A stretch of 12,252 nucleotides of DNA from Clostridia bacterium (GTDB taxonomy: Bacteria > CBDUZB01 > JAGLHV01). This document shows, piece by piece, positions 4,511 to 12,252 of the stretch. The notes beneath the pieces were generated by a model. It had not been told where the DNA came from, did not search any database, and saw only the letters and a program-made list of their open reading frames with translations. Location of the stretch: assembly GCA_030595925.1 (NCBI GenBank), contig JAUVLC010000074.1, positions 1-12,252 of the forward strand, written 5' to 3'. Every line of letters begins with the position of its first letter. Position 1 is the stretch's first letter. A program made the translations under genes and the position numbers.

Positions 4511-4532
4511 AGGAAGGTTTTTTATAACAAAA

Positions 4533-5074
4533 ATGTTTAATTTGTTTGGTAATAGCGAAATAAAATGTGAAAGATGTCATGTTTCTTGGAAAAAAATAAA
4601 TATCATTTTTTTGATGTGGGGTACCGTAAATTATTTAAACAAGGCGAAAGATTAAAATTATGTACTTCCTGTCTTATGGAAAAATACAAAGAATATTTAA
4701 ATTTTTTTCAATATAGAGCAATAGTAATAGAACCGTTTAAACCTTTAAATGCTTATCAGTTTTATAACTTTCAGCAAATGAAAAAGTATAATTTTAGAAA
4801 AGAAGATATTGAAAAAATGAAGGTTTTAATTCCAGGGATAAAAAAACATTGTGATTGTGGCCGATCAGCTCGTTTTCTTTGGTGTTCTCCGGAAGTTTAT
4901 TTTCGCGATGTATATAAGTTTAATATGAATTCACAGTATAAAGGTGATTCATTATGCATAAAGTGTTTGTGTAATCATCTTAAAAATATTATAATCAGGG
5001 AACAAATTTATTTTGATGAGGTTTTTCCTCCCATGGGGGAGAGTGACGGGTTAATAACCTCTTTTGAATGTTAG
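4533..5074 (+). CDS. Zinc-ribbon-like protein, readable only through a -1 shift at an A7 tract
   Basis: Two overlapping frames together make one sensible protein. From ATG 4533 the first frame reads MFNLFGNSEIKCERCHVSWKK, then fails. The second, whose nominal start is ATG 4574, continues as NKYHFFDVGYRKLFKQGERL to the stop at 5074. They join exactly at A7 (4590-4596): a -1 slip, or one extra A, gives SWKK-NKYHFF. The joined product, about 180 residues, has CERCH near the start and CTSC after the junction, a classical four-ligand zinc ribbon. HCDCG...WC and CIKCLC pairs follow later. ATG 4574 has no ribosome binding site, whereas AAGGAAGG (4511-4518) precedes 4533, though about 15 nt away. Function is unknown. 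The break may be a sequencing error, a mutation, or slippage on the A7 run. Confidence 0.62.
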
Positions 5075-5090
5075 ACGGATTAAAAATTTA

Positions 5091-5215
5091 ATTCAATGAG
5101 ACTTAGATTTTTTGTCAGCGTAGCTGGAAAAACTCTGTAGTCGAATAGATCCTGAGCAATCGTAGGGAGTTTAAGGGTCTCGGTTGTATTTCTTACTAGC
5201 TTGCTGCGGGGTAGT
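5091..5215 (+). repeat. Structured dispersed element, copy 1 (candidate ncRNA or REP-like unit)
   Basis: A noncoding element matching 9377-9500 in the same orientation. The first 17 nt are identical (5091-5107). So are a 29-nt core (5128-5156), GTAGGGAGT (5162-5170) and TAGCTTGCTGCG (5196-5207). Potential pairings: GAGAC 5098-5102 with GTCTC 5177-5181; AGA/TTTTT 5105-5113 with AAAAA/TCT 5128-5136, with one mismatch; an apical CAGC/GCTG (5116-5119 with 5123-5126); TTACTA with TAGTAA at the 3' end. It lies between the zinc-ribbon stop and the L,D-transpeptidase ribosome binding site. A weak promoter-like pair, TTGAAT (5064-5069) and TTTAAT (5087-5092) with a 17-nt spacer, would start transcription at its 5' edge. 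It could be a small RNA, a 5' leader or a mobile repeat. Confidence 0.7.
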
Positions 5216-5246
5216 AAATTTAGTGGTTAAAGAAAAGGAGTTTTTC

Positions 5247-8463: not shown

Positions 8464-9306
8464 TTGGGTATAATTGGACAGAAAATTTGGTCGATAAGTT
8501 GGATGGTAATAGCTATTGTTGTGGGAGTATATTTTGTTTTGTTAGTTTTTTTGCTAATGTTTCAATCCGACCTTATTTATTTTCCCCAGCGTGAAATTAC
8601 GTTTCTACCCGGGACCATGGGATTATCCTACGAAGATGTTTATTTTAAAACTGCTGATGGGGTAAATCTTCACGGTTGGTTTGTCCCCGCAGAAAGGGGC
8701 AGGGGGGTGGTTTTATTTTGTCATGGTAATGCCGGTAATATTTCACATCGGTTGGAATCTATTCAAATATTTCATCGTCTGGGATTAGATACATTTATTT
8801 TTGATTATCGGGGTTATGGTAAGAGTGAAGGTAGAATTAGTGAAGAAGGTACTTATCTTGATGTGGAAGCGGCCTGGCAGTATCTTGTTAGTAATCAAAA
8901 AATAAGTGATGATAAAATTATTATTTGGGGCAGGTCTCTGGGTGGTTCCATTGCTGCCTGGATAGGGCAAAAACACACAGCTAAATTGCTTATTTTAGAA
9001 TCTGTCTTTACTTCTGTTCCGGATATGGGAGCTGAAATATATCCTTTTTTTCCTGTTAGATTGTTGGCGCGTTTTAAATACAAAACTATAGATTATGTGA
9101 AACAAGTAAATTTTCCGGTTTTAATCATTCATAGCCCTGAAGATGAAATAATTCCTTTTGTTCACGGACGGCGATTATTTGAAGCGGCAAAGGAACCGAA
9201 GAAATTTCTTGAAATTAGTGGTTCACATAATGAGGGTTTTATTTTTTCGGGAAAACACTATGAAAATGGGTTGGATTCTTTTATTACTGAATATATCGAA
9301 AAATAA
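8464..9306 (+). CDS. Membrane-anchored alpha/beta hydrolase (BEM46/ABHD13-like)
   Basis: A 280-residue protein with one N-terminal membrane helix (about 10-34), then the LIYFPQRE segment common in BEM46/ABHD13-like serine hydrolases. The catalytic set is complete: oxyanion segment FCHGNAGN (85-92), nucleophile S158 in GRSLGG, acid D227 in HSPEDEIIP and H255 in GSHNEG. The length is normal for the family. Substrates are usually unknown; an ester or acyl lipid is plausible given the membrane anchor. The start is TTG 8464, 4 nt after a strong AAGGAGG (8453-8459). That spacing is short, but no better start preserves the membrane helix. A strong stem-loop terminator follows the stop. Confidence 0.9.
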   Translation: MGIIGQKIWSISWMVIAIVVGVYFVLLVFLLMFQSDLIYFPQREITFLPGTMGLSYEDVYFKTADGVNLHGWFVPAERGRGVVLFCHGNAGNISHRLESIQIFHRLGLDTFIFDYRGYGKSEGRISEEGTYLDVEAAWQYLVSNQKISDDKIIIWGRSLGGSIAAWIGQKHTAKLLILESVFTSVPDMGAEIYPFFPVRLLARFKYKTIDYVKQVNFPVLIIHSPEDEIIPFVHGRRLFEAAKEPKKFLEISGSHNEGFIFSGKHYENGLDSFITEYIEK

Positions 9307-9313
9307 AGAAATG

Positions 9314-9358: not shown

Positions 9359-9376
9359 AAGGAAAAATAGAATTTT

Positions 9377-9500
9377 ATTCAATGAGACTTAGAGTTTTTT
9401 CATCTACGCTAATAAAAACTCTGTAGTCGAATAGATCCTGAGAGACTGTAGGGAGTCGAAGGGTTTCCGGTTAATTTCCCGTAGCTTGCTGCGAGGTAGT
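9377..9500 (+). repeat. Structured dispersed element, copy 2 (candidate ncRNA or REP-like unit)
   Basis: This copy shares the conserved blocks of 5091-5215: 9377-9393, 9414-9442, GTAGGGAGT (9448-9456) and TAGCTTGCTGCG. Its second stem is perfect here: AGAGTTTTT (9391-9399) with AAAAACTCT (9414-9422), around a loop unrelated to copy 1. The long-range stem is kept as GAGAC with GTTTC through a G-U pair. CTTG-CTG-CGAG can form a small 3' hairpin. It occupies most of the 343-nt gap between hydrolase and kinase, downstream of the terminator and upstream of the TTGACA promoter. It therefore does not look like a leader of either gene. No good promoter of its own was seen. Confidence 0.7.
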
Positions 9501-9544
9501 TTATTTAATCTAAGAGGATTAAAAGCAAAAAAAGAAAGAATATA

Positions 9545-12101: not shown

Positions 12102-12162
12102 AGTGTGGCGGCCCTAAATCCGATATTGAAAAAAGGAAATAGACGAGAAAGAGCAAAAAAGA

Positions 12163-12242
12163 TTTCACCAAATAGGTGAAAAAGGTATAAAAAAGCCTCG
12201 CTATTTGGTATAATAATAGTTGTAACAAAAAATTGTTATACC
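12163..12242. promoter_or_regulatory. Overlapping inverted repeats with alternative hairpins after the PAP2 gene
   Basis: TTTCACC (12163-12169) pairs with GGTGAAA (12175-12181). CCAAATAG (12168-12175) instead pairs with CTATTTGG (12201-12208), so the two hairpins exclude each other. GGTATAA (12207-12213) pairs with TTATACC (12236-12242), and TGTAACAA (12221-12228) with TTGTTATA (12233-12240). No T-run follows, so a plain terminator is unlikely. It may be a leader or operator of a gene beyond the window. Confidence 0.4.
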
Positions 12243-12252
12243 GACAAATAAA

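Follow-up and report, generated by a model that had tools for sequence, protein, structure and literature searches.

The window analysed here is a stretch of 12,252 nucleotides from a Clostridia bacterium, and its contig is one of the 193 contigs of a 2.6 Mb genome (G000). It contains two copies of a repeat, at 5091-5215 and 9377-9500, where the original prediction had placed them, and these two are only part of many. The blocks of 17, 29, 9 and 12 nt that were described as identical between the two copies are indeed so (ATTCAATGAGACTTAGA, AAAAACTCTGTAGTCGAATAGATCCTGAG, GTAGGGAGT and TAGCTTGCTGCG), and BLAST aligns the copies with 80% identity over 138 nt (E=1.7e-26), far above chance. As for the limits of the copies, end conservation indicates that they had been drawn roughly correctly, except that the right edge was a few bases short and the left edge took in part of the insertion target. 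Using conservation at 65 left and 37 right junctions to set the limits of the element, we arrive at the following features, all on the forward strand.

5087-5093, forward strand: target heptamer TTTAATT of copy 1, outside the element (left-junction logo, 65 ends; the motif is also present in the empty sites of other copies).
5094-5221, forward strand: element copy 1, of the A-C type, without a B module (BLAST family, module scan and end logos).
5100-5142, forward strand: module A hairpin of copy 1 (module A alignment and pair counts).
5192-5211, forward strand: module C hairpin of copy 1, the IS200-type right-end hairpin, with a partly decayed stem (module C alignment; right-end profile match at 5198-5215, E=0.0014).
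5212-5221, forward strand: right tail of copy 1, TAGTAAATTT, the consensus being TAGTTGATTT (right-junction logo, 37 ends).
9373-9379, forward strand: target heptamer TTTTATT of copy 2, which reads TTTAATC in the empty site of genome G002 (empty-site alignment).
9380-9506, forward strand: element copy 2, of the A-C type, not found at the orthologous G002 site (sister-locus alignment and end logos).
9386-9428, forward strand: module A hairpin of copy 2 (module A alignment and pair counts).
9477-9496, forward strand: module C hairpin of copy 2, the IS200-type right-end hairpin (module C alignment; right-end profile match at 9478-9505, E=7.3e-7).
9497-9506, forward strand: right tail of copy 2, TAGTTTATTT (right-junction logo).

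Near the end of the window, a separate 137-nt stretch (12112-12248) recurs with 100% identity on contigs C97 and C187 and with 77-94% identity in congeneric genomes, and it probably marks the border of another multi-copy element.

A count of copies, which the original prediction had called for, gives dozens per genome by BLAST. Copy 1 as a query returns 51 matches in the window's genome, whereas a consensus query returns 38 there and 36 and 35 in two congeners. In other words, each of the three genomes of the genus (G000, G001 and G002) has about 40 copies, these counts of BLAST matches being lower bounds where copies have diverged. Fetching the loci and scanning them for modules revealed 77 distinct clusters across the three genomes, with modules arranged in the order A-(B)n-C. 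The copies are some 130-300 nt long, are mostly intergenic and contain no transposase gene. Module A is a hairpin of the form GACT.AGAGTTTTT-loop-AAAAACTCT.AGTC, in which the loop is either TCAGC..GCTGA or short. It is followed by GATCCTGAGC and then, optionally, by B palindromes (GAGTTTATCCTGAGCGTAGTCGAAGTGCTCAGCATAAACTC...GTCGAAGGG). Module C reads GGGTCTCGGTTTAATTCCCCGCAG-CTTG-CTGCGGGG TAG TTGATTT, and its longer variant consists of two such hairpins. With 6 nt between the left junction and the A hairpin, and 10 nt between the C hairpin and the right end, the element has palindromes near both of its ends. Judging by their sequence, some tandem copies look as if one element had inserted into the TTTAATT inside another one.

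Comparison of the three genomes shows that the element is mobile and that copies have moved after the species split. G002 lacks copy 2 of the window: the orthologous locus, on contig JAGLYT010000031.1 ('bacterium isolate RS_13_36'), is an empty site that reads GAATTTAATC|AATCTAAGAGG, as opposed to GAATTTTATT-element-AATCTAAGAGG in the window. Likewise, two copies on contig C1 of G001 are found in neither G000 nor G002, a copy common to G000 and G002 (C102/C157) is not present in G001, and a G000 copy at C120:33826 is not present in G002. The informative empty sites already bear the target-like motif without the element, one of these sites (s2) being poorly aligned. Upstream of the empty site for copy 2, G002 also has about 975 extra bases just past the gene that ends at 9306 (near window positions 9305-9311). 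Within window positions 4526-5233, G002 has neither copy 1 nor the adjoining ORF at 4574-5074, so the copy 1 site is not usable as an empty-site test; the copy and this ORF may have been gained or lost as a unit. Where two species share a site, the copies differ in module content, and the element is usually less conserved (62-95% identity) than its upstream flank (87-93%). The exception is a single pair (L002/L137), with 95% identity in the element and 93-94% in the flank, based on 91 aligned positions with 66 gaps.

Both ends of the element are sharp. On the left, conservation starts abruptly at TTTAATT (consensus of 65 ends); on the right, it stops abruptly after TTGATTT (37 ends), and the flanks beyond are not conserved. 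These ends can be compared with those of a classical MITE or BOX element, which would show terminal inverted repeats and a target duplicated by its DDE transposase. The modular A-(B)n-C structure is that of BOX elements, which combine this layout with inverted repeats and duplications (PMC3049150), and the AT-rich target together with a weak likeness between the ends (AATTCAA/AAATCAA) would also agree with such an origin. However, the heptamer conserved at the left end differs in consensus from the one at the right end, and beyond that weak likeness there is no convincing terminal inverted repeat. In addition, a permutation test on 30 full copies revealed no consistent target duplication over 225 offsets (the best single offset had z=3.0, a small effect, and AT-rich flanks limit the power of the test), which led us to reject a BOX-type MITE with target duplication. 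The AT-rich flanks also make a short duplication hard to rule out at any single site. Taking into account that the right end is common with tnpA-bearing elements of the IS200 group, described below, we consider a MITE or BOX element of this kind highly improbable.

The original prediction had favored a different interpretation, an unrecognised functional RNA. Indeed, a structured RNA such as a riboswitch or sRNA present in many copies might be expected to reside between genes and to keep its pairing. The element does the former for the most part, and 34 out of 56 copies are co-directional with both neighbours, as compared to 14 in the opposite orientation. As to the preserved pairing that had been proposed, 93% of the cells compared across 35 A modules retain the A stem, and double changes are in modest excess (9 versus 2.5 in shuffles), whereas no such excess of covariation is seen in the C stem of 25 C modules. 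Rfam yields no match at the gathering score. Folding is weak, neither window copy being better than dinucleotide shuffles (z of -1.2 each), and no terminator-like site was found at copy 1. The orientation bias can be explained at least in part without any RNA function, because the target carries a TAA stop codon. For the same reason, left junctions are expected to fall on the stop codon of an upstream sense gene, as they do in 21 of 60 cases compared with 2.4% of random positions. Since hairpins are predicted by both readings, the stems have to be interpreted with care. Retention of the A stem would fit a hairpin recognised in transposition as well as an RNA, and a hairpin in single-stranded DNA would give the same excess; decay of the C stem would fit copies that are free of constraint after insertion. 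The dispersal of the repeat as mobile DNA, the empty sites in sister genomes and the divergence of copies at shared sites speak against the RNA interpretation. Thus, the repeat of the window is real but is not a new RNA family, and the chance that it represents a functional structured RNA appears very slight.

As for the right end of the element, its hairpin and tail (CCCCGCAGCTTGCTGCGGGGTAGTTNATT) are also found in unrelated bacteria, as the terminus of transposase-bearing IS200/IS605 elements. With up to 2 mismatches allowed, the C end alone is present in 11 of 386 sampled genomes, two of which come from other families and have 39 and 21 copies of it, while the reversed pattern used as a control has no match in the 386 genomes. 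The IS200-type end was not found in E. coli genomes, and a phage origin was discarded in view of copy 1 having no match in phage records. In genome G361 the element takes the form TTTAAT|CTCTTTTAGGGTCTAATTCCCCGCAGCTTGCTGCG...GTTGATACCCCGCTGCTTGCGGCGGGGTAGTTCATT|, so that the TTTAAT target is found there too. A plasmid search with this G361 element identified a complete insertion sequence on the Pseudanabaena plasmid NC_019690.1, consisting of TTTAAT|CACTATAGGGTCTAATTCCCCGCCGCTTGCGGCG, then tnpA, then TTGAATACCCCGCTGCTTGCGGCGGGGTTTTTTATT|, with the transposase being WP_015146128.1 of Pseudanabaena sp. PCC 7367. The same arrangement, including tnpA, is seen in a viral contig from IMG/VR (L263), and another viral contig (L264) has a solo copy made of the ends only. 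Relatives bearing tnpA are also found in Megaera, Kovacikia, Chroococcidiopsis, Pantoea and Edwardsiella. Throughout these tnpA-bearing elements, those of Pseudanabaena and L263 included, the left end is AATC..GGGTCTAATTCCCCGC, usually following TTT, and the right end is ATACCCCGC...GCGGGGTNGTTNATT. Between the left end and tnpA, the relative on a Pantoea plasmid (L299) has a DNA adenine methylase gene and the one on an Edwardsiella plasmid (L304) a gene for a hypothetical protein.

The transposases of the Pseudanabaena element and of contig L263 both belong to Y1_Tnp in Pfam. Both also score well with the NCBIfam IS200/IS605 transposase model (137 and 126 bits, respectively, the cut-off being 55) and stay below the cut-off of the REP-associated transposase model. 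To compare the ends, we used a profile of nine right ends of tnpA-bearing elements, none of them from this genus, the Kovacikia and Chroococcidiopsis ends having been shortened by one stem base for ungapped alignment. The two best matches of this profile in the window are the two copies (9478-9505 and 5198-5215, with the E-values listed above), and in 200 locally shuffled windows it has no matches. A left-end profile also has a match in copy 2, at 9470-9493 (E=0.00095), a segment situated just before the C hairpin. The element's own left end has no match to this profile, no relative of hairpin A was found, and nothing in the transposase-bearing elements corresponds to modules A and B. As far as we have searched, A and B are additions limited to this genus. 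By sequence comparison, then, it is the right end and the segment preceding the C hairpin that resemble transposase-bearing IS200 elements with the same target. The window's genome itself has a decayed, frameshifted TnpA associated with a right end of the same kind, GTTGATACCCTGTGG..CCACAGGGTAGTTCATT; over 86 residues, this TnpA shares 51% identity with the one of Pseudanabaena. An intact IS200 TnpA is encoded on contig C65. In the fetched loci of the genus there is no transposase gene between the A and C ends, and no Y1 transposase was detected in G001, though this genome has lineage-specific insertions.

Y1 transposases are also the presumed movers of another class of repeats, the REPs, in which GTAG stands 5' of a hairpin and which are paired with REP-associated tyrosine transposases, or RAYTs (PMC8266576, PMC3733652, PMC6006769). 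The alternative offered in the original prediction, in which an unlinked transposase moves a repeat of the REP/MITE type, was essentially right, except that the relatives are IS200-type elements and not GTAG REPs. A GTAG-type REP or REPIN moved by a RAYT would account for the GTAG next to the palindromes, for the presence of about ten RAYT-like Y1 genes in the window's genome (L059-L069) and for one copy in G361 located 69 bp upstream of a RAYT gene. Nevertheless, GTAG does not precede the 3' hairpin as had been reported; it is found 3' of the C hairpin and inside the 3' arm of A, rather than 5' at the foot of the hairpin, where a REP would have GTAG or GTGG. The flanks fetched for the Y1/RAYT genes of the window's genome, up to 1.5 kb long, do not contain the element, and several of these RAYTs have palindromes or inverted repeats of their own (e.g. 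GGCAACTAC, GGGGACGTTG and CGCAGGCTAAAGCCTGCG) that are unrelated to the element. The RAYT of G361 is likewise flanked by a repeat of its own (GGGGACGCGTC/GACGCG), and its association with the copy may therefore be incidental. Considering also that the ends of the element match IS200 elements instead and that the associated TnpA proteins fall below the cut-off of the REP transposase model, we find a REP/RAYT origin improbable.

Members of the IS200/IS605 family have hairpins near both ends and insert 3' of a short target, with neither terminal inverted repeats nor target duplications (PMC7290912, PMC6006769); PATEs are their transposase-free versions with related near-terminal palindromes (PMC3119063). 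Because its right end closely matches an IS200/IS605 end, the repeat is to be classed with known kinds of mobile DNA and not with new regulatory RNAs. Very probably, it is a transposase-free mobile element of the PATE type, derived from IS200/IS605-family insertion sequences, and the best reading of the element as a whole is a non-autonomous, IS200-derived, PATE-like element with genus-specific, BOX-like extra modules. As to how such a PATE-like element would move, a Y1 (HUH) TnpA supplied in trans might bind the hairpins near both ends on single-stranded DNA, cutting the left side 3' of the TTTAAT target and the right side after the TTNATT tail. The excised strand would then be joined 3' of another TTTAAT without duplication of the target. 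We infer this scheme from the target, the ends and the relatives. What speaks against it is that the A and C ends enclose no transposase in the fetched loci, that no Y1 gene was detected in G001 and that A and B are without counterpart. A TnpA of the IS200 group presumably did the moving, and the A hairpin may now serve as the left recognition hairpin. One could go further and envisage an IS200-derived element with a replaced left recognition hairpin, a self-expanding modular array and an unlinked or lost TnpA, some copies of which have been recruited as 3' ends of transcripts, at junctions that provide the stop codon of the upstream gene. We regard this extended scenario as rather unlikely. 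In practical terms, a candidate RNA family is removed and a well-supported mobile element takes its place. With the right-end signature CCGCAGCTTGCTGCGGGGTAGTTNATT and insertion after TTTAAT as a guide, non-autonomous IS200-type repeats, which are easily mistaken for structured RNAs, can be annotated in unrelated bacteria. The modular left part also raises the question of whether an IS200-type TnpA accepts a left hairpin unlike that of its own element.

Among known systems, the element shares with GTAG REPs and REPINs (PMC3733652, PMC8266576) intergenic palindromes and Y1-type transposases as presumed movers, but it differs from them in having GTAG 3' of the hairpin, in its fixed left target and in not being located beside the RAYT genes of the window's genome. 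With the BOX elements of Streptococcus pneumoniae (PMC3049150) it has in common the modular A-(B)n-C organization, stem-loops, an intergenic location and arrays of variable length; BOX elements, however, have terminal inverted repeats and target duplications and are tied to another insertion sequence (ISSpn2). The insertion sequence of Pseudanabaena sp. PCC 7367 (WP_015146128.1) and its relatives from Kovacikia, Pantoea, Edwardsiella, Megaera and a viral contig have the same right hairpin and tail, the same GGGTCTAATTCCCCGC segment before the hairpin and the same TTTAAT target, while differing in the presence of tnpA and the absence of modules A and B. The PATEs of Haloquadratum (PMC3119063) and the PATE-like element of Halanaerobium (PMC7290912) are similar in being transposase-free, in their many copies and short targeting sequence, in near-terminal palindromes related to IS200/IS605 (here at the right end only) and in having neither inverted terminal repeats nor duplications. 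What sets our element apart from these PATEs are the additional ordered modules, the A hairpin and the B palindromes, which precede the IS-like hairpin and are known here from one genus only.
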